Below are positions 53,594 through 64,000 of a stretch of DNA of 64,000 nt, in pieces. Position 1 is the first letter of the stretch. Each line of letters starts with the position of its first letter. The notes below the pieces were generated by a model. That model was not told the origin of the DNA, searched no databases, and saw only the letters and a program-made list of their open reading frames with translations. The translations under genes were made by a program, and so were the position numbers. Source of the stretch: Polyangium mundeleinium (GTDB taxonomy: Bacteria > Myxococcota_A > Polyangia > Polyangiales > Polyangiaceae); contig NZ_JAQNDO010000001.1 in the NCBI RefSeq assembly GCF_028369105.1, positions 11,936,501-12,000,500 of the forward strand, written 5' to 3'.

Positions 53594-54178
53594 TCAGTCT
53601 TCATCCGGGGCGCTGATGCGCGCCTCGTCGATCCGACGCGTCCTCTTCCCCGGGATTTGCTCGCCCCTTTGTTGGGCCAGGAGCTCGTCACGGAGTTTCA
53701 GCAGAGGTTCGAGGTGATATTCGTAGAACTCCGTGTCGCTCTGCGTCGCCCTCGCTTCTTCGAGCCCTCGCTCGAGCTCGGCGATGAGCGGCCAAAGCAC
53801 GGCGAGCCCCTCCTCGGGGTTCTCGTCGTACCGACAGCACTCCGCGAAAAACCACGTCATCACGTATTCTCGGTCCTTGGCCGAGAAGCCGAGGCGAACC
53901 AACTCGTTCCACGCCTGGCGGCAAACCTCGAAGGGGGGGTGCTTCACTTCCGCGAGCGTGAGGATCGTCTCGGCGATGCGTCGCCTCGTCTCGAGCACGT
54001 GAAAGTCACTGTCGCATCCGCGCACCACGAACTCCTCCTCGAGCCGACGGAAATCATCCACGGCCTCGGCGAAGCTTCGCTCCTTATCCAGAGACTTGAC
54101 CAAAAGGCGGTCGCTGGCGTTGCAGAAGGCCAGCTCCTCCCCCTCCATCTCTTCGCCGGATTCCCGCTCATCGCTCAT
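53594..54178 (-). CDS. acidic cytosolic protein, putative partner of the upstream lipoprotein
   Basis: A 194-residue soluble, Glu-rich protein with no signal peptide. It is mostly helical (SFAEAVDDFRRLEEEFVV, RRRIAETILTLAEVK, EYVMTWFFAECCRYDENPEE, EFYEYHLEPLLKLRDELL). The ATG overlaps the stop of the lipoprotein gene (ATGA), so the two are translationally coupled. By position and by analogy with toxin-immunity pairs, it could neutralise or bind the exported lipoprotein, but no family is recognised and this is inference. Confidence 0.7.
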   Translation of the reverse strand: MSDERESGEEMEGEELAFCNASDRLLVKSLDKERSFAEAVDDFRRLEEEFVVRGCDSDFHVLETRRRIAETILTLAEVKHPPFEVCRQAWNELVRLGFSAKDREYVMTWFFAECCRYDENPEEGLAVLWPLIAELERGLEEARATQSDTEFYEYHLEPLLKLRDELLAQQRGEQIPGKRTRRIDEARISAPDED

Positions 54179-54888
54179 TTACACGTCTCCCATTTGGACA
54201 TCATGATTTTGTCGGGCCATTTGCCCTCCCCACGACATTTTTCAAAGCACGTCTTACATCTCGAATGGTTCCATACGCTCCCCTTTTTGCTTTGTACAGC
54301 CGAGTCAAGGCAGTCGTTCAGGGGCTCTTGACACGGGTCATCGTCTTTCTTCCGAGCCGTCTTCGCAATATCCGACTTGCCAAGCTCCACCGACGCGGCG
54401 ACCACGATGACAACGGGGGCCGCCTCGATGATGAGGTCGGCCAGCGTGATCGCCACGGCCACGAGCACCGCGGGGTTTCCGACAAGCCCACGCTCGGCCG
54501 GCCTCTGCACATTCGCAGGCGCGGGCGACGCGGACAGGCGCAGCTTGCGCAGCCTGAGCAGCTCCTCCGGGATGGTCATGCTTCGCAACGCGATCCGCAT
54601 GCATATCGCGAGCTCTTCATGGGGCACGCCTTTGCTCTTGACATCCACGACATGTCCGCCTTCGTCGACCGACAACACGACGTCGAACGTGAATTTCCCT
54701 CGGGGGAGGTCACCACCGAACGCATCCACGCATTCTCGCAGGCGCTCCGCAGTTGCATCCGGTACGCGCGGGCCCTCGCTCGCTTCCGGGTACGTGATCT
54801 TCGCCCCGCAGCCGAGCGGTATGAGCGCTGCCGTCGCCCAGCCGAGGAGCCCGAGGGACAGAAAGGTACGCACACGCGGGACCGTCAT
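54175..54888 (-). CDS. lipoprotein with TonB-like domain, hydrophobic segment and Cys-rich tail
   Basis: A 237-residue lipoprotein (lipobox PLGC). Residues about 50-125 follow the pattern of the AgmX/PglI or TonB-like C-terminal domain (FTFDVVLSVDEGGHVVDVKS, LAICMRIALRSMTIPEE). A hydrophobic stretch (AVLVAVAITLADLIIEAAPV, about 150-175) and a Cys-rich C-terminus (CQEPLNDCLDS, SRCKTCFEKCRGEGKWP) follow. The protein at 55982-56650 shares this order. The ATG at 54888 is chosen; TTGACA (54924-54919) upstream could be its -35. Secreted-effector-like architecture; the role is unproven. Confidence 0.72.
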   Translation of the reverse strand: MTVPRVRTFLSLGLLGWATAALIPLGCGAKITYPEASEGPRVPDATAERLRECVDAFGGDLPRGKFTFDVVLSVDEGGHVVDVKSKGVPHEELAICMRIALRSMTIPEELLRLRKLRLSASPAPANVQRPAERGLVGNPAVLVAVAITLADLIIEAAPVVIVVAASVELGKSDIAKTARKKDDDPCQEPLNDCLDSAVQSKKGSVWNHSRCKTCFEKCRGEGKWPDKIMMSKWETCK

Positions 54889-54997
54889 TGCCAGGATGCG
54901 ATCAGGAACACCGGTTTCTGTCAACGCAGGCCGTGTCTACCCCCACAGTGCGTCCACACCTTTCTCCTCTTGCGCGCGCTTCTCCTCCTGTGGTCCC

Positions 54998-55810
54998 ATG
55001 CCGCGCATGAGCAGCCCCTCATTCGATCCCATCCAGGGTAAGCAAGCCTTCGACACACTCCTCCCTCGCTACAAGGCGATGCCGGTGGAATCCCTCTCCG
55101 TCGTGAATGCCGACGCGGGCCTCGTCGCCGTCGCGGCGCTCGGATTGTCCGCACGGGCGAGCGAGCCGAAGCTCCTCGCCCGCTACAAGAGCCTCCCCGC
55201 GAGCGAATTCGACGCGAGCCTCGTCGCTCTGCTCCCCACGGCCGCCTGGGCGTGCTGGTACGCCGCGACCGAGGATCAAAAGGCGCGCGCTCTCTCCACA
55301 GAGGCGAAACTCCCGGTCGAACTCGTGCAGAAGGCCCTCGCCATCGAGGCGCGCATGCAGGCCTGCTGCGAGTACCATTTGAATGATCACCCCGAGGTCG
55401 GCCCCTACCTCGCCATGCTGCGCGGGGGCACGGGCCACCGTGACCTCGCGGCGGATCTGCTCGGTTATGCCAGTGTGTATCGAGACCATTATGACGCGCT
55501 CTCCATCGATAAAAAGCACTTCCGTTCGACCGACGCCGACGACGCCGTGAAGGTCGCGGAGGAGATCCTCGCCACGCTGGGCGCGCGGCTTGGCCCGGAG
55601 GCGCGTGCGGCCGCCGATGACCTCGCTCGCGCGTTCACGCTCTTGCTCGATACCTACGAGGAAATCGCCTCCGCCGGCCGGTGGCTCTTGCGTCACGAGC
55701 CCGCGCCGGAAAAGACCTTCCCCTCGCTCTTCAGCGTCGTTCGCTCCCGGGCAGGCGGCCGAGGCAAGAAAAAGCCCGAGCCCGCCCCGGCAGGACCCAC
55801 CGGAGGCTGA
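54998..55810 (+). CDS. helical protein of unknown family
   Basis: A 270-residue protein rich in Ala/Leu helices (FDTLLPRYKAMPVESLSVV, LLPTAAWACWYAATEDQKA, DLLGYASVYRDHYDALSID) and ending in a Lys/Pro-rich tail. No signal peptide or membrane helix. Two near starts (54998, 55007) exist. It lies divergent from one lipoprotein module and upstream of the next, in an accessory-looking block; no motif indicates function. Confidence 0.68.
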   Translation: MPRMSSPSFDPIQGKQAFDTLLPRYKAMPVESLSVVNADAGLVAVAALGLSARASEPKLLARYKSLPASEFDASLVALLPTAAWACWYAATEDQKARALSTEAKLPVELVQKALAIEARMQACCEYHLNDHPEVGPYLAMLRGGTGHRDLAADLLGYASVYRDHYDALSIDKKHFRSTDADDAVKVAEEILATLGARLGPEARAAADDLARAFTLLLDTYEEIASAGRWLLRHEPAPEKTFPSLFSVVRSRAGGRGKKKPEPAPAGPTGG

Positions 55811-55812
55811 AA

Positions 55813-55918
55813 AACCCCTCCTGGAGGACGCTGACAGGCGCGCCGGGGCTCCCAAACCCCCCTCCCCGGGTCGTCGACAGGCGCCGGAGGGCTCCGAAAC
55901 CCCCCGCCCGGCGCCGGG
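55813..55918 (+). repeat. 43-base imperfect direct repeat with terminal palindrome
   Basis: Two and a half copies of a 43-base unit, recognisable by the block GACAGGCGC...GGGCTCC.AAACCCC, at 55833-55862 and 55876-55905. The array ends in the perfect palindrome CCCGGCGCCGGG (55907-55918) followed by TTCCGCTTTT, which could terminate transcription of the gene ending at 55810. The repeats are outside coding sequence. Confidence 0.6.
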
Positions 55919-55981
55919 TTCCGCTTTTCCAACTCAGCCCAACGGCCGTATCCTCTCGTCCGCAGGCAGGGGGGTGAGCTC

Positions 55982-56650
55982 ATGGGGAAGGGGCGGCTTG
56001 CCGGGGCAACGTTGTTCGCTACGTGCATGGCGGTGTGTTTGGCGCCCATGGGATGCGGGGCGAGCGATGAATACGCCGCCATGCCTGTGCCCCCGACCGA
56101 GGGGTCGCTCCCCGCGAGCACGGTCCGGGCGCTTCAAGCATGCGCGGAGAAGCACGCGGGGCGGCTCGGGCGCCATGCGTACGAGATCGACTTCCAGGTC
56201 GAGTTGACCGACAACCAGGTCTCCAAGGTGAGGCCCAAGGGTCCGCGGCTCGACGACGCCGGCCTCGAACGGTGCATGCTCGATGCGCTGCGGACGATGG
56301 CGGACGCGGGCTACACGCCAAACCCCGACGAGCTGATCTCGCGCGGCGGCCTCTTGCCTGCGCGGGGCCTCTTGGCGAACGTGTCGGTGATCTCCCAGTT
56401 GATCCGACTCGCCCCGCTGATCGTCTCGGCATCCGGCGTGACGATCGTCGTGGGCGTCGCGGTCCTCGTCGTGGCCGCGGCCGTTTCCTTGAAGGATGCC
56501 GCCGACGAGGACGCCGAGAAGGAACGGTGCAAGAAGGTCAAGCAAGGCTGTATCGAATTCTGTGCCGATACGACACTGCACCAAGGGATGCACGAACCGC
56601 ACTTCACCCGTTGCCTACGAGCGTGCATGGAGAAGGCCAACTGCCCGTAA
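55982..56650 (+). CDS. lipoprotein with TonB-like domain, hydrophobic segment and Cys-rich tail (second copy)
   Basis: A 222-residue lipoprotein (lipobox APMGC) sharing the layout of the protein at 54175-54888: a TonB/AgmX-like domain (about 50-110; YEIDFQVELTDNQVSKVRPK, LERCMLDALRTMADAGY), hydrophobic segment (GVTIVVGVAVLVVAAAVSL) and a Cys-rich C-terminus (ERCKKVKQGCIEFCAD, FTRCLRACMEKANCP). The two are divergent paralogues, not identical copies. A small gene with a strong ribosome-binding site starts 10 bases after its stop, completing a second two-gene module. Confidence 0.74.
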   Translation: MGKGRLAGATLFATCMAVCLAPMGCGASDEYAAMPVPPTEGSLPASTVRALQACAEKHAGRLGRHAYEIDFQVELTDNQVSKVRPKGPRLDDAGLERCMLDALRTMADAGYTPNPDELISRGGLLPARGLLANVSVISQLIRLAPLIVSASGVTIVVGVAVLVVAAAVSLKDAADEDAEKERCKKVKQGCIEFCADTTLHQGMHEPHFTRCLRACMEKANCP

Positions 56651-56660
56651 GGAGGAGACA

Positions 56661-56876
56661 ATGGACCGAGACACGGCCGAAAAGTTGAACAAGATAACCC
56701 TCGAAGCCTATTTCAAGCTCCACGACGCCGTCGCCCTCGTGCACGCGAGCTGCTCGTCACCCGAAAGAAAAGAATACATCATGGGATTCGGGAGAGCGCT
56801 CGGGTATCTTTACACGGACGTTCTGAGTCCACTCTACAAAGAGTATCCGGATCTCAAGCCCGACAACATCGCGTGA
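56661..56876 (+). CDS. 71-residue cytosolic protein coupled to the lipoprotein
   Basis: A small helical protein (AEKLNKITLEAYFKLHDAVA, CSSPERKEYIMGFGRALGYL, VLSPLYKEYPDLKPD) without export signal. ATG at 56661 with an AAGGAGGA site just ahead. Codon use is less GC-extreme than the neighbours, which can indicate transfer. Position makes it a candidate immunity or chaperone partner of the lipoprotein; this is inference. Confidence 0.7.
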   Translation: MDRDTAEKLNKITLEAYFKLHDAVALVHASCSSPERKEYIMGFGRALGYLYTDVLSPLYKEYPDLKPDNIA

Positions 56877-56900
56877 CCGGGGGCGCGAGGGGAACCCTGC

Positions 56901-57317
56901 TCATGGCAGAAGTCGAACAGGGGTCCCGCCGCGCCCGAGCGCACGCCATTCGATCAGCGCGAGGCTGACCACCTCGGAGGCTATCTTGTGGATTTCCTCG
57001 ATGAGCAGCGCTGCCAGCTCTTCGCTGGCCGGGCTTCCGTGGAAGACGCGCCGACGATGCAGATGGGTGAGCTTGTCCCCGGGGACATAGATGCGGTGAT
57101 CGCTGCCGACGAGGTAAAGCCCGCCCCGTAGCCGCTCTGCAAGATCTTCGAGGAATCGCTCCGATTCGCGGTAGGTCAGCGCATACCAGGCGCTCGCCGC
57201 CTCGCGGCTCTCCGGCTCGCGAAGATAAAAGCTTTCGACGTAGAGCCTGCCATCGCTCCGGTGCGCGTACGCCGTCCTGAATCTGGGGTCCAGCCGGGCA
57301 AAGCTTTGGGGAATCAT
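56901..57317 (-). CDS. hypothetical protein, predicted target of the anchored ECF sigma factor
   Basis: A 138-residue soluble protein (FARLDPRFRTAYAHRSDGRL, SAWYALTYRESERFLEDLAE, SEELAALLIEEIHKIASEVV). No family recognised. Its 5' region, from 57360 to 57333, contains the same two 10-base blocks with 8-base spacing found ahead of the membrane-anchored sigma gene, so it probably belongs to that regulon. The ATG at 57317 is preceded by GAGG. It converges with the small gene ending at 56876. Confidence 0.68.
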   Translation of the reverse strand: MIPQSFARLDPRFRTAYAHRSDGRLYVESFYLREPESREAASAWYALTYRESERFLEDLAERLRGGLYLVGSDHRIYVPGDKLTHLHRRRVFHGSPASEELAALLIEEIHKIASEVVSLALIEWRALGRGGTPVRLLP

Positions 57318-57332
57318 GGCCTCGTTCCCCTA

Positions 57333-57360
57333 TATTCACCGGAGAGAGAATTTCGTGAGG
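57333..57360 (-). promoter_or_regulatory. ECF-type promoter, copy 2 (gene at 57317)
   Basis: Reading the minus strand, CCTCACGAAA (57360-57351), 8 unrelated bases, CCGGTGAATA (57342-57333). Both blocks are identical to those at 60898-60871 and the spacing is identical. Expected start of transcription is about 10 bases ahead of a GAGG site and the ATG at 57317. Confidence 0.78.
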
Positions 57361-57407
57361 CGCATCGGGTCGATTTTCCCCGGCGGTCGGGAGAGCCGGG
57401 CCAGCGG

Positions 57408-58622
57408 CTACTTGGGCGGCTGGGGCTCGTCGTCGAACGGCGACCGGCAGCAAAACGTCACGGCCTGCGCGGGGTCGCGCTCGGCCGAGCCTGTCGACTC
57501 GCCGCCCGTGGAGAGGCAGATGCCGGGCATGTACCCGAGGTCCGTGATGGCTTTGCCGCCGAGGGCACGGCCGACGGGGTACACGTTGACGCACTGTTCG
57601 CCGTAGCTGGAAAGGCCGACGTTGTCCGCAGGCACTGCGCAGGCGCCATCGCTGTAGAGCCGCAACGTGCCCAAACACGCGCTCCCCACCGGCGCCCCGC
57701 CGCATTCACACGTCGTGCAGTCGCGCGTGTCGATCGGCTGCTCGCCGTAGAGCTCGTACCGCGCGAACGTGTAGTTGCCGGGGCACGTCTCGTGGATGCC
57801 GTCGAGCGCGACGCACTGGAGCCACGGCAGCGGCGCGTTGTGCATGCAGCGGTACGTCGTCGGGTCGCAGGGCTCGTCGAGCTCCTTCGCCTCGCACGCG
57901 ACGCCTGCTGTCTCCCAGTCCGTCGTCTTCACGAACGCGGGCGGCGTCGAGCTGATCGGGCAAGCCTCGCTCGAAGGGCCGGGGAGCGGCGAGGCGTAGA
58001 CGGACTGCGCGCACGGCTCGCCGTTGCACTGCGCGCCCGAAGGCAGCGCGTTCGCGCTCGTGCACGCGCCCTCCCAGCCGTCGGGCCCGCCGAACGGGAG
58101 CGACGACGCGTCGCTCTCCGCGCACGTGCCCGCGCGGACCTCCAGGCTCCCGGGCAGCCCGGTGCATGTGCCTTCCGACATGGCGCACGTGCAGGCCTCG
58201 CACGCTGCGGGTGGGGCGACGAGGCCCGTGAAGCGGCGGTACTTCTCGAAGAAGACGACGTCCTCGGGGAGGCCTGCGGCCTTGCGCGCCTCGTCGCAGC
58301 TCGTCGGCGCGAGGGCGCGAGGACCGACCCACAGGAGAAAGGGCGTGCGGGGCCAGCTCCCCGCGAAGTCGTCGCTCGGCTCGGGGAGGCAGCGGCCGGA
58401 GCAGGAGGATTGCGGCGCTGGGGTGCCGGGATCGATGAGGGAGTCGGCGTCGCTTCCGGCGTCGGCGGCGTCGGGGCCGGCGTCGGCGGGGAGGCACCAC
58501 GGATCGGGGAAGGGAGCATCGGGATCGCACTCAGCCACGCCCACGTGGGGCGAGCTCGAACAACCGCCCGTCCAGATGCCCAGACCCACGATCAACCCGA
58601 AGGACAAACCTCGGCGCAACAT
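57408..58622 (-). CDS. large Cys-rich lipoprotein
   Basis: A 404-residue lipoprotein (LIVGLGIWTGGC lipobox TGGC), an Asp/Pro/Ala-rich linker (ADAGPDAADAGSDADS) and a long domain with about 30 cysteines (CEACTCAMSEGTCTG, CTTCECGGAPVGSACLG, CCRSPF). The ATG at 58622 overlaps the stop of the upstream gene by one base (TGATG) and has GGAG in front; the start four codons upstream is less likely. It is the last gene of the operon headed by the anchored sigma factor, so it is likely an envelope product of that stress response. Confidence 0.8.
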   Translation of the reverse strand: MLRRGLSFGLIVGLGIWTGGCSSSPHVGVAECDPDAPFPDPWCLPADAGPDAADAGSDADSLIDPGTPAPQSSCSGRCLPEPSDDFAGSWPRTPFLLWVGPRALAPTSCDEARKAAGLPEDVVFFEKYRRFTGLVAPPAACEACTCAMSEGTCTGLPGSLEVRAGTCAESDASSLPFGGPDGWEGACTSANALPSGAQCNGEPCAQSVYASPLPGPSSEACPISSTPPAFVKTTDWETAGVACEAKELDEPCDPTTYRCMHNAPLPWLQCVALDGIHETCPGNYTFARYELYGEQPIDTRDCTTCECGGAPVGSACLGTLRLYSDGACAVPADNVGLSSYGEQCVNVYPVGRALGGKAITDLGYMPGICLSTGGESTGSAERDPAQAVTFCCRSPFDDEPQPPK

Positions 58623-59851
58623 CAGAAGCTCCATTCCGCGAGTAGCTGAGACGTGATCATCATCGGCGGCTGGTCCACGAAGATGGCTTGACCAGCAACC
58701 AGTTTTGTGCCGCGGGCGAGCCCCAGCGCCTCCGCTGCCGCTTGCACGGAGAAGGAGGAACCGAAGCTGAGCCTTGCTCCGATCCGGCCCCCCACACCGG
58801 GCTTCACGAAGGAGAGCGACCGCTCCTTGTAGCTGGTCCCTTCAAACTCGATGTTGATCACACCGAGGTGCCCGACCAGGCAACCGTAGAACCAGCGGTA
58901 GTGTCCACAAGCGTTGAGCAGGGCGCCTCCGGTCATCGCGTTGATCTGCCCGCCTTGCACGCCCGACGTGAGCCACGCGGCACGTCCTTCCACGCCGATC
59001 GACACGTACTCGTTCGTCCTCAAACTACCCGCGAGGACGCCGCCCACCGCCGGGCTCCACGACGCGACGCCGAACACGACGACGGGGCCCGCGCCGATCG
59101 TCCCTCGCAAGCCCGGCTTCTTCTCCTGCCCGGCCACACCGCCGACGATCGGCTCACGCCGCGCGCGCTCGTCCTCCGGCGGTTCCTCCACGGTGTAGAC
59201 CCGATCGACGTCTCGCCGACGCAAGAGCCGCTCCGACGGCGGCAGCGGCTTCTTCCGCTCGCGCAGCGTCAGCGTGATCGTCCTCTGCTCCCCCTTGCGC
59301 GCCGTGAAGCTCTCCACCGCTGGCTCGTACCCGTCCAGCGTCGCGCGGAGCTCGTGCTCGCCCGGCATGACGAACATCGACAGCGCGGAAAAGCCGTTCT
59401 TGTTTCGGGGCTCGCTGTCGAGCGTGAGCTTGGCCCCGACATGCGAGATCGTGACGTCGATCCACGCGACCTCGGCGCGCGCCGCGTCGTACGCCTTCAA
59501 GAACCCCTGTCGTTCCTCGGAGCTCGCGCTCGATGCGCGCTGGATCGCGTCGAGCAAGAGGTCGGCCGCATCGACGGGGCGACCAAGCTCGACGAGCAGC
59601 ACCCCGAGCCGGCCTGCGATCAACGGGTCATGACGGACCGCGAGCGCTGCGGCGTAAGACCTCGCGGCTGCCGTCTTGCGGCCGGCCGCACGCGCGTTGT
59701 CTCCGTCGATGACGTGGGCCGTGAACGTCGCGTTCTTCGCCGCGTCCGCGAGAGCGTCCGGCGGAACGGGAGGCGCGGCGCGTGGCTCGTCGGCAGCCGC
59801 AGGGGATGCAATGCCGACAAGCGCGATGGCCACGACGACGAGGGGCCGCAT
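58622..59851 (-). CDS. TPR-PEGA protein with outer-membrane-like C-terminus
   Basis: A 409-residue exported protein (MRPLVVVAIALVGIASPAAA-D). Residues about 25-125 form TPR-like helices (GDNARAAGRKTAAARSYAAA, LLVELGRPVDAADLLLDAIQ), about 130-205 a PEGA-type beta domain (VTISHVGAKLTLDSE, MPGEHELRATLDGYEP), and about 250-409 a beta-rich segment that looks like a small outer-membrane barrel or surface domain (GVASWSPAVGGVLAGSLRT, GGRIGARLSFGSSFSVQAAA). Middle gene of a three-gene operon; begins 63 bases after the sigma gene. Confidence 0.8.
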   Translation of the reverse strand: MRPLVVVAIALVGIASPAAADEPRAAPPVPPDALADAAKNATFTAHVIDGDNARAAGRKTAAARSYAAALAVRHDPLIAGRLGVLLVELGRPVDAADLLLDAIQRASSASSEERQGFLKAYDAARAEVAWIDVTISHVGAKLTLDSEPRNKNGFSALSMFVMPGEHELRATLDGYEPAVESFTARKGEQRTITLTLRERKKPLPPSERLLRRRDVDRVYTVEEPPEDERARREPIVGGVAGQEKKPGLRGTIGAGPVVVFGVASWSPAVGGVLAGSLRTNEYVSIGVEGRAAWLTSGVQGGQINAMTGGALLNACGHYRWFYGCLVGHLGVINIEFEGTSYKERSLSFVKPGVGGRIGARLSFGSSFSVQAAAEALGLARGTKLVAGQAIFVDQPPMMITSQLLAEWSF

Positions 59852-59913
59852 CCCGCTCCACAATACTCCATGCGCGCGGCGCCGAGGAGCCCAAGCGGTC
59901 ACGCGACGAACCC

Positions 59914-60864
59914 CTAACGCCGCCGGAATTCGAGGTCCGCGACGTTGTCGAGGAAGGGCTCATCCGTCGTCGCGGCTGCGGCGCCGCGTGCAGTCTCGAC
60001 CGGCTCAGCGGGCTTCGGGCGAGCCGCGGGCAGCTTTGCGCTCACCTTCGCGGAGGAGGGCGCGGGCGCGGGGACATCGACACGCGGCGCAGGCGCGATC
60101 TCGATCACGGCGGAAGCGCTCTCGGCCGTCGCCCCATGGACCGCGGGCACGGAGAGCCCCGCACGCGCGGTGTGCACCGACGGCGAAGGCCACGAAAGCG
60201 CCGCGATGATCCACACCGTCAGGAAGTCCCCGCCGCGCCGAAAGAAGGAGAACAGCCTGGCCAGTATCCCGGTGCCCTCCCGTTGTTCCTCTTCGCTCTC
60301 GACGCAGAACGGATACACGACGCGCAGCTCGTCGCGGCTGATCCCGCTCTCCCTCTCGATGTACGCGCGCGCGTCCTGGAGGCGCTTGCGGGAGGCTTCT
60401 TCGGTGATCCCGAGCAGCTCGGCCGCCTCCTGGTGTGAGTTTTCCTCGATGCAAACGAGGTAGAGCACGATGAACAGCGGCTCCGGCATCGCCTGGAGCA
60501 CGAGCCCGACCTTTCGTCGCAGCTCATGCATCCGGGCGATGCGCTCCGGGGAAGCGTGCGGCGAGAGCACCGAAACGGCGCCGTCCTCCGTCGCGAGGCA
60601 CGCGTCCCGCTGCCGCGTCCGCTCCGCGCGCTTCGCGATGTTTGCGGCGATGCCGAGGACCCATGACTTCAGATCACCCTCGTCTTCGCGGTAATTCGGC
60701 AGGCTCGCGACGGCCTCCGTCATCACGACTTGCACCTCGTCTTCGAGGCTGTCGCCGTCCTCGCGGCCCTTCCGGCGGCTGGCGAGGAAGCGCTCGACGT
60801 CGGGACGGAGGTCTGCGACGCGAGCCAAGAGGTCGGAATGGCGGGGGGCAGAACCAGCACTCAT
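59914..60864 (-). CDS. membrane-anchored ECF-type sigma factor
   Basis: A 316-residue protein whose first 175 residues are a sigma-70-like ECF domain: region 2 (about 20-88, DLKSWVLGIAANIAKRA) and region 4 (about 115-172, SHQEAAELLGITEEASRKRL). A hydrophobic helix (about 213-228, FLTVWIIAALSWPS) and an Ala/Pro-rich, probably periplasmic tail of about 85 residues follow, with no zinc-finger anti-sigma gene beside it. The sigma factor would thus be self-tethered, the tail acting like an anti-sigma sensor. Its ATG lies 7 bases from the -10-like block, implying a nearly leaderless transcript and self-activation. Confidence 0.82.
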   Translation of the reverse strand: MSAGSAPRHSDLLARVADLRPDVERFLASRRKGREDGDSLEDEVQVVMTEAVASLPNYREDEGDLKSWVLGIAANIAKRAERTRQRDACLATEDGAVSVLSPHASPERIARMHELRRKVGLVLQAMPEPLFIVLYLVCIEENSHQEAAELLGITEEASRKRLQDARAYIERESGISRDELRVVYPFCVESEEEQREGTGILARLFSFFRRGGDFLTVWIIAALSWPSPSVHTARAGLSVPAVHGATAESASAVIEIAPAPRVDVPAPAPSSAKVSAKLPAARPKPAEPVETARGAAAATTDEPFLDNVADLEFRRR

Positions 60865-60870
60865 GGCCTG

Positions 60871-60898
60871 TATTCACCGGAGGCGAGGTTTCGTGAGG
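60871..60898 (-). promoter_or_regulatory. ECF-type promoter, copy 1 (anchored sigma gene)
   Basis: Minus strand: CCTCACGAAA (60898-60889), 8-base spacer, CCGGTGAATA (60880-60871). The -10-like block ends 6 bases before the ATG at 60864, so transcription should start at or near the first codon. Identity of both blocks with copy 2 points to one sigma factor recognising both, most simply the product encoded here. Confidence 0.8.
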
Positions 60899-61432
60899 CA
60901 AAAACTTCACCCGACATGTCGATTTCAACGGTGGGTCCCTGGATCGTGGGACCACGAGAGCGAGTCACGGAAAAAGGCGTGGAGGAGAGGTCCCCGCGAG
61001 GTCCGGCTTTGATTTTTCCTCGGTCCCGTCTCCCGGTGCTGCCGGGTGGGTGCTCGCGAGGCGTTTGCGCACGGAGCGAGAGGACGTCCTCCACTGCGAA
61101 TACCGTCCCCAAATCGAGGCGCCGCGTCAAGCGACAAACGCAGAAAGTTACAGATTTCCAAACCGGTGGGGTTTTACCCGGGGCCCTGGGACGAACGCCG
61201 GGGGGGGTCCCGTGCGTTCGATCGGTCCGCCGCGCGAGCCGGGTGCATGTGTTCAGAGGCGGTCGGGCTTCTTGCCCAAGCCCAGGTGGACGAAGGCCTC
61301 GGCGCGCAGGAAGTGGAGCGGCTCGCGCAAACGTGGGGCAGAAGAGGGGAAACCCATACGCTCCTGTGGATGCCAGACGTCCCCTTCGAGACGAGCGTGG
61401 CAGGGGGAAACGAGCCGCGATAGGCTCCCCCA
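60899..61432 (+). other. 534-base intergenic stretch without a convincing gene
   Basis: Frames here are short and Arg/Gly-rich, with no domain-like pattern. Notable elements: a perfect palindrome TCGTGG-GA-CCACGA (60944-60957), a possible operator, and a stretch (61130-61220) that is locally less GC-rich and then G-run rich (61201-61208), with CGAACGC ... GCGTTCG arms that could fold. The GH31 gene begins at 61433 with no clear promoter or ribosome-binding site. Confidence 0.4.
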
Positions 61433-63268
61433 ATGAAGCTGGCTTCGTTCCCGTTGCATTTGTTACCATTGCCTCTCGTCGTTCTCGCGCTCGCTGGTTG
61501 CTCGGACGATCCCAAACCGACCCCCCCGGACCCGGCGGATCCTTGTCTCCGGCCCGCCGAGAACCTGCCCGAGCCCACGCGCCACACGCCGCGCTGGGCC
61601 TTCGAGCCCTGGATCTCGAAGGACATCTCGGACGGCCCGGACACGTATGCCTTCGTGTCCGGCTTCCGCGAGCGCGACATCCCCGTCGGCGCCGTGGTCC
61701 TCGATAGCCCGTGGGAAACCCATTACAACACGTTCATCCCGAATCCCTCGCGGTACCCCGATTTCGGCAAGATGGTGGCGGACATGCACGCGGACGGCGT
61801 GCGCGTCGTCCTGTGGATCACGAACCTCGTGAACGCGGTCTCGTACGACCTCGAAGAAGGGGGCGACGGCTACGTGGGCGCCTCGCCGAACCTCGCGGAG
61901 GGCGAGACGTGTGGGTATTTCGTCGAGGATTCGGCGCGGTTCGCATGGTGGAAAGGCACGGGCGCCGCGGTCGACTTCATGAACCCGTCGGCGCGGTCGT
62001 GGTGGCACGAGCAGCAGAACGGCGTGCTCGACATGGGGATCGACGGCTGGAAGATCGATTTCGGCGACAGCTACGTCCGGCTCGATACGGTCACGACGGC
62101 CGCGGGGCCCGTCCCGCACCAGGAATACTCGGAGGCCTATTACCAGGACTTCCTGGCCTATGGCGTGGCGCGGCGCGGGCCCGAGTTCGTCACGATGGTC
62201 CGGGCCTGGGACGAGTCGTACGATTTCAAGGGCCGCTTCTTCGCCCGCAAGGAGCACGCGCCCGTCGCGTGGATGGGCGACAACCGCCGCGATTGGGTGG
62301 GCCTCGAGGACTCGCTCGATCACATGTTCCGCTCGGCGGCCGCGGGGTACGTGGTGCTCGGCTCCGACATCGGCGGGTATCTCGATCGGGACGACAAGGA
62401 CCTGCTCGGCGAGCAGATCCCGCTCGACCCCGTGAATTTCGCGCGCTGGACCGCGATCGGCGCGCTCTCGCCGTTCATGCAGCTCCACGGCCGCGCGAAC
62501 ATCACGCCCTGGACCGTGCCGCAGAATGGGACCGAGATCGCCGACATCTATCGATTCTGGTCGAAGCTCCACCACGAGCTCGTCCCCTTCTGGTACAGCC
62601 TCTCCGAGGAAGCGTATGCCGGGGCCGCGGTCCCCGTGCGGCCCGAGGGCGCGGAGGCGAGCTGGCCCAAGGATTATCGGTATGCGATCGGCGACGCCCT
62701 CTTCGTCGCGCCGCTGCTCGATGGCACGGGGAAGCGGGACGTCACGCTCCCGGCAGGAGCGCGTTATTATGATTTCTGGACGCCGTCGGCGGCGCCGATC
62801 GAGGGCGGGACGACGGTCGCCGCCGATTTCTCGGCCGATCTGCAGAAGGTGCCGCTGTATTTCCGGTCCGGCGCGATCGTGCCGATGCACGTCGCGGACG
62901 AGGTCACGGGGCTCGGCAATGCGGCGTCCGCGGGCAAACTGACGGTGCTCGTGTTCCCGGACGCGACGTCGTCGAGCTTTTCCCTGCACGACACGGATGA
63001 CGTGGTCACCGTCGTGAAGGCGTCCGCGACCGCGAATGCGGCGTCCGTGTCGATCTCGCGCACGCTCGTGGAGACGCTCCTCCGCGTCCGCGTGGAGGAG
63101 GAGCCGGGCAGCGTCACGATCTCCGGCAGCGCGACGACGAAACACGCCACGCGGGCCGCGCTGGATGCGGCCCCCTCGGGCTTTTATTACGAAGCGGAGA
63201 CGCGCTCGGCGTGGGTCAAGGTCCCGGCGGGCGCCGGGGAGAGCGCGATCGAGCTCCAGAAACCCTGA
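61433..63268 (+). CDS. glycoside hydrolase family 31 lipoprotein
   Basis: A 611-residue secreted, lipid-anchored glycosidase (lipobox ALAGC, Cys23). The catalytic barrel (about 55-440) includes GAVVLDSPWETHYNTF, the nucleophile Asp209 in WKIDFGD (206-212), and the acid/base Asp283 in WMGDNRRDW (280-288), as in GH31 alpha-glucosidases and relatives. The usual N-terminal beta-sandwich is almost absent (only about 30 residues before the barrel), while C-terminal beta domains (about 450-611) are present. Specificity cannot be assigned. Stop lies 3 bases from the convergent VOC gene. Confidence 0.88.
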   Translation: MKLASFPLHLLPLPLVVLALAGCSDDPKPTPPDPADPCLRPAENLPEPTRHTPRWAFEPWISKDISDGPDTYAFVSGFRERDIPVGAVVLDSPWETHYNTFIPNPSRYPDFGKMVADMHADGVRVVLWITNLVNAVSYDLEEGGDGYVGASPNLAEGETCGYFVEDSARFAWWKGTGAAVDFMNPSARSWWHEQQNGVLDMGIDGWKIDFGDSYVRLDTVTTAAGPVPHQEYSEAYYQDFLAYGVARRGPEFVTMVRAWDESYDFKGRFFARKEHAPVAWMGDNRRDWVGLEDSLDHMFRSAAAGYVVLGSDIGGYLDRDDKDLLGEQIPLDPVNFARWTAIGALSPFMQLHGRANITPWTVPQNGTEIADIYRFWSKLHHELVPFWYSLSEEAYAGAAVPVRPEGAEASWPKDYRYAIGDALFVAPLLDGTGKRDVTLPAGARYYDFWTPSAAPIEGGTTVAADFSADLQKVPLYFRSGAIVPMHVADEVTGLGNAASAGKLTVLVFPDATSSSFSLHDTDDVVTVVKASATANAASVSISRTLVETLLRVRVEEEPGSVTISGSATTKHATRAALDAAPSGFYYEAETRSAWVKVPAGAGESAIELQKP

Positions 63269-63271
63269 CGA

Positions 63272-63733
63272 TCAGCTCGTCTTCGGATCGCGGAGCCGCT
63301 GGTAAAACCACCAGTGGTGGCCGCCGATGTCGACACACTCGTATCCGCGATCCGACCAGTATTCCTCGCCGTAATCGACGGTCGCGGGCTCCTTGACGAT
63401 CCGCGCGCCCGCGTCCCGGGCCCGCGCGCAGTGCGCCTCCACGTCGTCGACGTACACCAGGATGTTCTGCGTGTTCGCGCCGCCGATCTGGCTCGGGGCC
63501 CTCATGTACGGGAACTTCTCCGGTTTGGGATGACCCACCATGATGAGCCCCTCGCCGTACCCGAGCTCCGAGTGCTCGACCGACCCGTTTTCCCCCTCGA
63601 CGAGCAGCCGCACCTGGAATCCGAAGGCGCGGCAGAGCCAGTCGATCGCGGCCCTCGAATCCTCGTAGTAGAGCGAGCACGAAATGCGGGGCCAGTTCGG
63701 CGGGGCCGGCTTCGACGGTTCTTGCGTGGTCAT
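63272..63733 (-). CDS. VOC-superfamily (glyoxalase-like) protein
   Basis: A 153-residue protein of one vicinal oxygen chelate domain pair: ISCSLYYEDSRAAIDWLCRAFGFQVRLLV, HSELGYGEGLIMVG, NILVYVDDVEAHCARARDAGARI, IGGHHWWFYQR. Conserved Glu/His positions for a metal are partly present. Functions in this superfamily range from glyoxalase and dioxygenases to antibiotic-binding proteins; none is chosen. ATG preceded by GGAGGAGGG. Confidence 0.87.
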   Translation of the reverse strand: MTTQEPSKPAPPNWPRISCSLYYEDSRAAIDWLCRAFGFQVRLLVEGENGSVEHSELGYGEGLIMVGHPKPEKFPYMRAPSQIGGANTQNILVYVDDVEAHCARARDAGARIVKEPATVDYGEEYWSDRGYECVDIGGHHWWFYQRLRDPKTS

Positions 63734-63882
63734 GTGGTTCCCTCCTCCTTCGGAGCGCGCGAGAGTTTTCCCAAGGCCCGGACATGCGTCAAGGCCTTCG
63801 GCTCGCAGAGGAGGTTTTTCCGGGAAATGGGCGGGACAGCGGGGAGCACGCGGGCACGCCGCGCGCTCCCCTCACCCTCGGA

Positions 63883-64000
63883 TCACTCGAGCGTGATCTC
63901 GAGGTTGTACAGCGCGCCGGAGTAGCCGTACGTCGAGTTCGTGACCTTGATGTAGTACTTCCCGGGCGCCGGGATCGGGTCGCTCGTGAAGTCCTCGTGG
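63883..64000 (-). CDS. C-terminus of a secreted protein with PPC-like domain, 5' end outside window
   Basis: The last 38 residues of a gene read from beyond the window: GKYYIKVTNSTYGYSGALYN, then LEITLE and a TGA. The YYIKVTN ... YNLEITL pattern is that of the bacterial pre-peptidase C-terminal (PPC) beta domain found at the ends of secreted proteases and adhesins. Nothing more can be said of the full protein. Confidence 0.65.
   Translation of the reverse strand, partial: HEDFTSDPIPAPGKYYIKVTNSTYGYSGALYNLEITLE

Follow-up and report, generated by a model that had tools for sequence, protein, structure and literature searches.

The window analysed here is a 64,000-nucleotide stretch of the Polyangium mundeleinium genome (contig NZ_JAQNDO010000001.1, positions 11,936,501 to 12,000,500), which carries on its reverse strand a gene for an extracytoplasmic function (ECF) sigma factor with a C-terminal extension. 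It is followed by genes for a TPR/PEGA protein, a Cys-rich lipoprotein-like protein and a 138-aa protein. A two-block motif stands before the sigma gene (site 1) and again before the 138-aa gene (site 2). This set of genes and sites is referred to as the cassette (Table 1).

Table 1. Positions (in the window) of the genes, sites and protein segments of the cassette.
Feature	Position	Strand	Basis or remark
A-rich box GAAATCGAC, upstream of site 1	60918..60926	(-)	pattern GAAA(A)TCGAC
Site 1, putative promoter of the sigma operon, CCTCACGAAA-N8-CCGGTGAATA	60871..60898	(-)	0 mismatches; 6 bases between its end and the sigma ATG
ECF sigma (316 aa, C-terminally extended), which probably regulates both sites	59914..60864	(-)	Pfam; family alignments A1/A5
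Residues 205-223, a short hydrophobic segment and candidate membrane anchor (weak in the window sigma)	60196..60252	(-)	hydropathy
Pro/Ala-rich tail (14% Pro, 24% Ala), terminal LEFRRR	59917..60195	(-)	composition
TPR/PEGA protein, signal-peptide-like N-terminus (by eye); possible envelope partner	58622..59851	(-)	Pfam; alignment A9
Cys-rich lipoprotein-like protein (lipobox by eye); conserved cassette member	57408..58622	(-)	no Pfam family
A-rich box GAAAATCGAC, upstream of site 2	57369..57378	(-)	pattern GAAA(A)TCGAC
Site 2, second promoter copy	57333..57360	(-)	0 mismatches; 15 bases to the ATG of the 138-aa open reading frame
138-aa gene 3' of site 2, family ASDG (named here), two SDGxxYV-type repeats	56901..57317	(-)	

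The sigma gene and its two promoter-like sites

Regions 2 and 4, which the initial annotation had read in the sigma gene, are borne out by Pfam, with Sigma70_r2 matching residues 18-86 and Sigma70_r4_2 residues 118-167. Region 4 (PF08281) is found in all 35 family members and region 2 (PF04542) in 34 of them, and neither these proteins nor the window sigma have a Pfam match to a region-3 domain, the pattern of an ECF sigma factor. Solved ECF sigmas match positions 10-173 of the family profile; the AlphaFold2 model has a low-confidence linker at residues 86-105. A separate anti-sigma gene had been said to be lacking, and no Pfam anti-sigma domain was found in the sigma or in the five neighbours scanned. 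Within the extension, no anti-sigma or FecR-like domain and no zinc-finger domain of Pfam was found in any of the 35 members (E ≤ 1e-2).

The two identical 10-base blocks with 8-base spacing that had been predicted were recovered at both sites without a mismatch. Sites 1 and 2 are the only 28-mers in the window at up to three mismatches (expected 0.01), and two or more matches occurred in 0 of 100 shuffles. The host genome (G000; 13.25 Mb in 2 contigs, 97.5% complete) holds, besides these two exact copies, one further match with three mismatches, the reversed-pattern control also giving one, so the motif is not strewn at random over the genome. Loosening the pattern to the core TCACGAA/CGGTGAAT with a spacer of 6-11 bases added one match in the host genome, with a 7-base spacer (reversed control 0). 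Because the shuffles, the genome search and the looser-spacer search gave almost nothing else, the pair of sites is taken as real and nearly unique. A chance motif is ruled out by the shuffles and the host-genome search, and a dispersed repeat by the finding of just two exact copies in 13 Mb.

Both sites are kept at the syntenic locus of P. fumosum, as CGTCACGAAA-N8-CCGGTGAATA before the sigma gene (one mismatch) and as CCTCACGAAA-N8-CCTGCGAATA before the 138-aa homolog (two mismatches), with the N8 spacing exact and the spacer bases diverged at both. The blocks are laid out like -35/-10 elements and, judged by eye, stop 6-7 bases 5' of the sigma start codon in L045, in the window class and, except for locus L038, in promoter class 1. 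Given the usual spacing of ECF promoters, a site that ends 6 bases before the ATG would make the sigma mRNA nearly leaderless.

Related cassettes and their paired promoters

A search for the cassette sigma gave 46 family matches at E ≤ 1e-25, spread over all six genus genomes examined, nine of them in the host genome; 44 of these loci, the window locus included, were retrieved for analysis. That the window cassette is one of 46, and that many of its relatives carry a hairpin RNA (see below), had been missed by the initial annotation. The cassette layout comprises the ECF sigma, the TPR/PEGA protein, the Cys-rich lipoprotein, a second copy of the sigma promoter and one or more output genes, and the order sigma-PEGA-lipoprotein holds in 37 of the 44 loci (exceptions: L037, L046, L110 and L112-L115). 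The PEGA and lipoprotein parts of L110 lie within one 803-aa frame. L112-L115 are a second architecture of the same system, in which the lipoprotein gene precedes the sigma gene; in two of these four, L114 and L115, the 240-aa and 138-aa families come next.

The 138-aa gene had been described as a separate hypothetical gene with the motif upstream. Site 2 does lie upstream of it, but the gene is a recurrent cassette member, its family being present in 16 of 44 sigma loci. A second family, of ~240 aa, is present in 22, and either or both in 27. At L047:7786-9303 (genome G107) an ECF sigma and a 138-aa homolog share one open frame of 574 residues, the sigma upstream, in a possible fusion of the two; this homolog is the closest relative of the 138-aa protein outside P. 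fumosum (58% identical), and in the frame sigma region 2 scores above its Pfam cutoff and region 4 below.

Searching with alignment A1 gave matches in two of 105 order genomes, both Polyangium, with the best 21 candidates per genome scored, so that distant relatives may escape. The window sigma alone as query matched in four of 115 genomes, all of the same genus (up to 19 candidates scored). A scan of named genomes returned six Polyangium loci and three weak matches in unrelated genera (E 2e-8 to 2e-4), which are taken as ordinary sigmas. Within these searches the cassette family appears confined to Polyangium.

In a first look from each sigma's promoter, a second copy was found 3' of the lipoprotein gene in nine of 14 other cassettes, one of them with four mismatches. 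Second copies were then located in 25 of the 26 loci tried, among the 44, with hand-picked strings that were chosen after earlier matches were known and are very short for L093 and L098; in eight further loci, of two other promoter classes (classes 7 and 8), the pair is alike as judged by eye. The class promoters, under labels assigned by us, read GTCACC..GCGGCCAATA, GTTACC..CCTTGTT, GTTACC..GGGCAAGAG, GTTACCTC..CGCGCATTGTTTG and GCGAAC(C/A)AAAT..RGTCA, next to that of the window class and others. On a crude block score, which missed the sites of classes with other layouts, no more than one of 100 shuffles was as good in 16 of 38 loci. When each sigma promoter was paired with the second region of its own locus the alignment scores summed to 1190, above every one of 20,000 permutations (random 919, standard deviation 30, maximum 1040.5).

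Scarcity in the host genome extends to the other classes. Since the patterns were derived from known sites, each is bound to have two matches, and the finding is how few others there are. The L052 class has two exact matches, both in its own cassette, and one with three mismatches (reversed control 0); the L110 class has two exact matches, again both in its own cassette, and two with one mismatch (reversed control 1). Of the four exact matches of class 1, the L034 cassette contains two, and the others precede the truncated sigma L037 and a remnant; four more matches have two mismatches (reversed control 6 matches). Each of the four checked sigmas of the host genome appears to have just two intact promoters, in its own cassette.

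The class-1 remnant (L165, host genome 12324427) consists of an exact promoter and codons like a sigma start, followed by unrelated sequence, and is judged by eye to be a decayed cassette. Outside the cassettes, two of the promoter patterns have single matches, weak or with unusual spacing, at C1:3970604 (L004), C1:9291721 (L003) and C1:7373323 (L172) of the host genome.

Proposed autoregulation, possible tethering and the alternatives

The cassette is likely to be a self-contained, positively autoregulated signalling unit whose sigma reads two promoters and is perhaps tethered to the membrane. The ECF sigma would recognise both promoters directly, site 1 driving expression of the sigma, the PEGA protein and the lipoprotein and site 2 that of the 138-aa output gene. 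Such a two-promoter circuit is suggested by the uniqueness of the sites, their conservation and their agreement within a class. Since the blocks are near-unique in the genome, are both kept in P. fumosum and vary, in paralogous pairs, with the sigma class, their action as the promoter of the cassette sigma is well supported, and the small autoregulated regulon that had been proposed, with two envelope genes in the sigma operon (those of the TPR/PEGA and lipoprotein-like proteins), is partly supported. On sequence evidence only, a sigma-specific two-block promoter lies upstream of the sigma's own gene, as in autoregulated ECFs. The hydrophobic segment would probably hold the sigma at the inner membrane, and its Pro/Ala-rich tail would extend into the periplasm, facing the two partners encoded in the same operon, the PEGA/TPR protein and the lipoprotein. 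An envelope signal may then release the sigma domain or switch it on, possibly through proteolysis, after which the circuit would feed back on itself.

Among 38 sequences of the family, maximal hydropathy in the C-terminal part lies between 0.95 and 2.12. At the place of the window segment several paralogs reach 1.8-2.1; the class-1 paralogs have 1.36-1.84 and the truncated L037 0.95; in L107, L110 and others the maximum lies in the tail, away from the shared place. AlphaFold2, run on seven sequences, models the sigma regions with good confidence, and residues 190-316 at a predicted local distance difference test (pLDDT) below 50, with a low-confidence helix at 213-224. The window sigma is 87% identical overall to that of P. 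fumosum (residues 1-172, 91%; 173-203, 69%; 204-226, 83%; 227-299, 88%; 300-316, 76%). On these values, membrane tethering is plausible for the cassette sigma family and weakly supported for the window sigma. Of the self-tether read in the initial annotation, a short hydrophobic segment and a tail, rich in Pro and Ala, are present; the hydropathy of the segment lies under the value usual for membrane helices.

Several observations weigh against the autoregulated, tethered circuit. For the C-terminal part, the highest hydropathy over 19 residues is 1.05 in the window sigma and 1.45 in its ortholog, the window value falling below the usual membrane-helix threshold of 1.6, and the segment sums to +7.7 on the biological insertion scale. 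When the sigma promoter of a locus was aligned locally with the second region of that locus, 21 of 38 loci reached p ≤ 0.05 (16 of them p ≤ 0.01), and the other 17 (L037, L040, L042, L044, L090, L093-L096, L098, L102, L104 and L106-L110) fell short of p ≤ 0.05. Throughout this alignment analysis, the summed pairings included, class-1 targets were placed around previously found sites, which favours a match. Scores were 31.3 for own-locus, 31.4 for same-class and 23.0 for other-class pairings; own-locus and same-class scores being equal, agreement of the paired promoters shows at the level of the class only. The loci are also duplicates of one another and not independent. The A-rich box shared by many sites, AAAATCGAC, could belong to another regulator.

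The most serious alternative, though a somewhat unlikely one, keeps the two-site regulon and makes the sigma soluble, its extension being a cytoplasmic inhibitory or sensing domain of the ECF41 or CorE type whose hydrophobic stretch is packed against the sigma domains or a partner. The low hydropathy and unfavourable insertion sum of the window segment suit it, as do the values of the class-1 paralogs and L037, and soluble regulatory C-terminal extensions are described for several ECF groups (PMC8999054). The higher values of other paralogs (1.9-2.1), the Pro/Ala-rich tail and the export-type N-termini of the operon partners (by eye on alignments) speak against it; so, as weak evidence, does the AlphaFold2 model, which places the segment without confidence.

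It is improbable that another transcription factor or a different sigma binds the blocks and controls the cassette while the cassette sigma acts elsewhere. The second shared element would fit such a regulator: a box of the form AAAATC/AAATCG/AATCGAC, a pattern picked after the sequences had been inspected, precedes 20 of 37 sigma genes, against a background of 2.1%, and 18 of 25 second sites, against 0.9%. Its distance to the paralogous sites varies, an inverted repeat looked for in the same analysis was found in 0 of 37, and the box may be an UP element or a second regulator's site. At both sites, however, the block sequence differs from one sigma class to another, and the -35/-10-like layout ends close before the sigma start codon in the loci named above. 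That site 2 was simply left behind by a local duplication, neutral and inactive as a promoter, is very improbable: the two copies do lie within 3.6 kb, but their spacers differ (CCTCGCCT vs TTCTCTCT) while the blocks are identical, P. fumosum keeps both, and other cassettes show this arrangement again with different sequences.

Partner genes, the putative hairpin RNA and known systems

Pfam recognises PEGA in the window TPR/PEGA protein at 21.7 bits (cutoff 20.8), TPR_16 staying under its own cutoff, and PEGA at E ≤ 0.01 in two of five aligned relatives. Against solved structures the protein gave no relative at E ≤ 0.1; its last aromatic residue would hint at a putative outer-membrane beta-barrel at the C-terminus. 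The 138-aa protein matches no Pfam family at E ≤ 0.05, and a structure model of it (from two sequences, mean pLDDT 38.9) is uninformative. By sequence its family profile resembles designed beta-propeller repeats (best E 2.6e-13), and the Pfam propeller repeat Hyd_WA matches weakly in two of 22 family members; the likeness may reflect merely the short SDG repeat. At 53594-54888 the window also contains a lipoprotein-like gene and a 194-aa neighbour, whose relatives (59% and 83% identical) lie in cassette L038 (7633-9009), after one and before the other of its sigma and PEGA genes; the two may travel as a pair, together with such cassettes or into them.

A hairpin of ~86 nucleotides with an invariant TGGGC (UGGGC) loop was matched in 25 of the 44 loci (E ≤ 1e-6; the model was built from some of these loci), for example at L102:5752-5837, L042:4981-5061 and L039:4762-4841, and follows a located second promoter in 11 of the 25. 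The window gave no match to the model. In the alignment of 15 sequences 27 pairs are predicted, of which 11 show changes on both sides (5.9 in shuffled alignments, 0 of 500 as high); further pair types are barely raised (29 vs 25.4, 23 of 500 shuffles as high). Sliding the partners lowers pairing from 92.8% to 46-63%, and the folding z of five members is -5.3 to -10.8. The model, which matches both strands because it is palindromic, found the element in all six Polyangium genomes, in two of 105 genomes of the order sample under stricter filters, both Polyangium, and at six places in the host genome, four of them in retrieved loci (scoring covered 150 of the 13,116 candidates from a first look, and weak copies may escape it). 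Rfam gave no match at gathering scores for eight loci and window 54000-64000. An RNA regulator, an attenuator and a terminator are candidate roles, and the hairpin is possibly a DNA-level palindrome instead.

It is quite conceivable, if still tentative, that in Polyangium a trans-envelope circuit has expanded into mutually insulated paralogs. Each sigma would read only the two promoters of its own cassette, sigma and promoters would diverge together, and many second promoters would make an RNA of a new structured family, with the invariant UGGGC loop, before the output genes; the window would be a variant without the RNA, in which site 2 drives the output directly.

Known systems share parts of this design. 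IutY of Pseudomonas putida (ECF243) is a fused sigma/anti-sigma of cell-surface signalling activated by proteolysis (PMC8999054). Like it, the Polyangium protein is an ECF sigma with a C-terminal extension (a membrane and periplasmic part in IutY, a candidate one here) and an envelope partner; unlike it, it matches no FecR-type or anti-sigma domain, is accompanied by TPR/PEGA and lipoprotein genes in place of a TonB-dependent receptor, and has its promoter pair inside the cassette. ECF48, ECF52 and ECF53 of Actinobacteria (e.g. SCO4117), with a zinc-finger and membrane helices fused to the sigma (PMC8999054), also have a C-terminal extension, with a predicted membrane helix where Polyangium has a candidate segment; they differ in the zinc-finger, matched in 0 of 35 members here (E ≤ 0.01), in phylum and in gene neighbourhood. 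The SigI/RsgI sets of Clostridium thermocellum (PMC6056542, PMC12203970) likewise provide several paralogous sigma systems per genome, answering different outside signals, although their RsgI anti-sigma proteins are separate and the cassette differs. ECF220 and ECF276, with Sorangium cellulosum examples, are myxobacterial ECFs with extensions, their mechanism listed as 'others' in a table of PMC8999054. Of the ECFs whose targets have been predicted, around 55% regulate themselves (PMC8103513). Self-regulation and tethered sigmas are thus already known, both kinds being described in these two sources; the duplicated cassette whose paired promoters follow the sigma looks new, no description of it having been found in a search of mainly openly accessible literature, within the parts of the papers covered.

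In the cassette, envelope proteins (PEGA/TPR and lipoprotein) are joined to sigma control with no recognisable anti-sigma gene. Should each sigma act on no promoters but its own two, duplication would have given a single genome several sigma-promoter pairs that are insulated by nature. Joint change of a sigma and its promoters, free of cross-talk, could then be studied directly, and circuit builders would gain a source of insulated parts.

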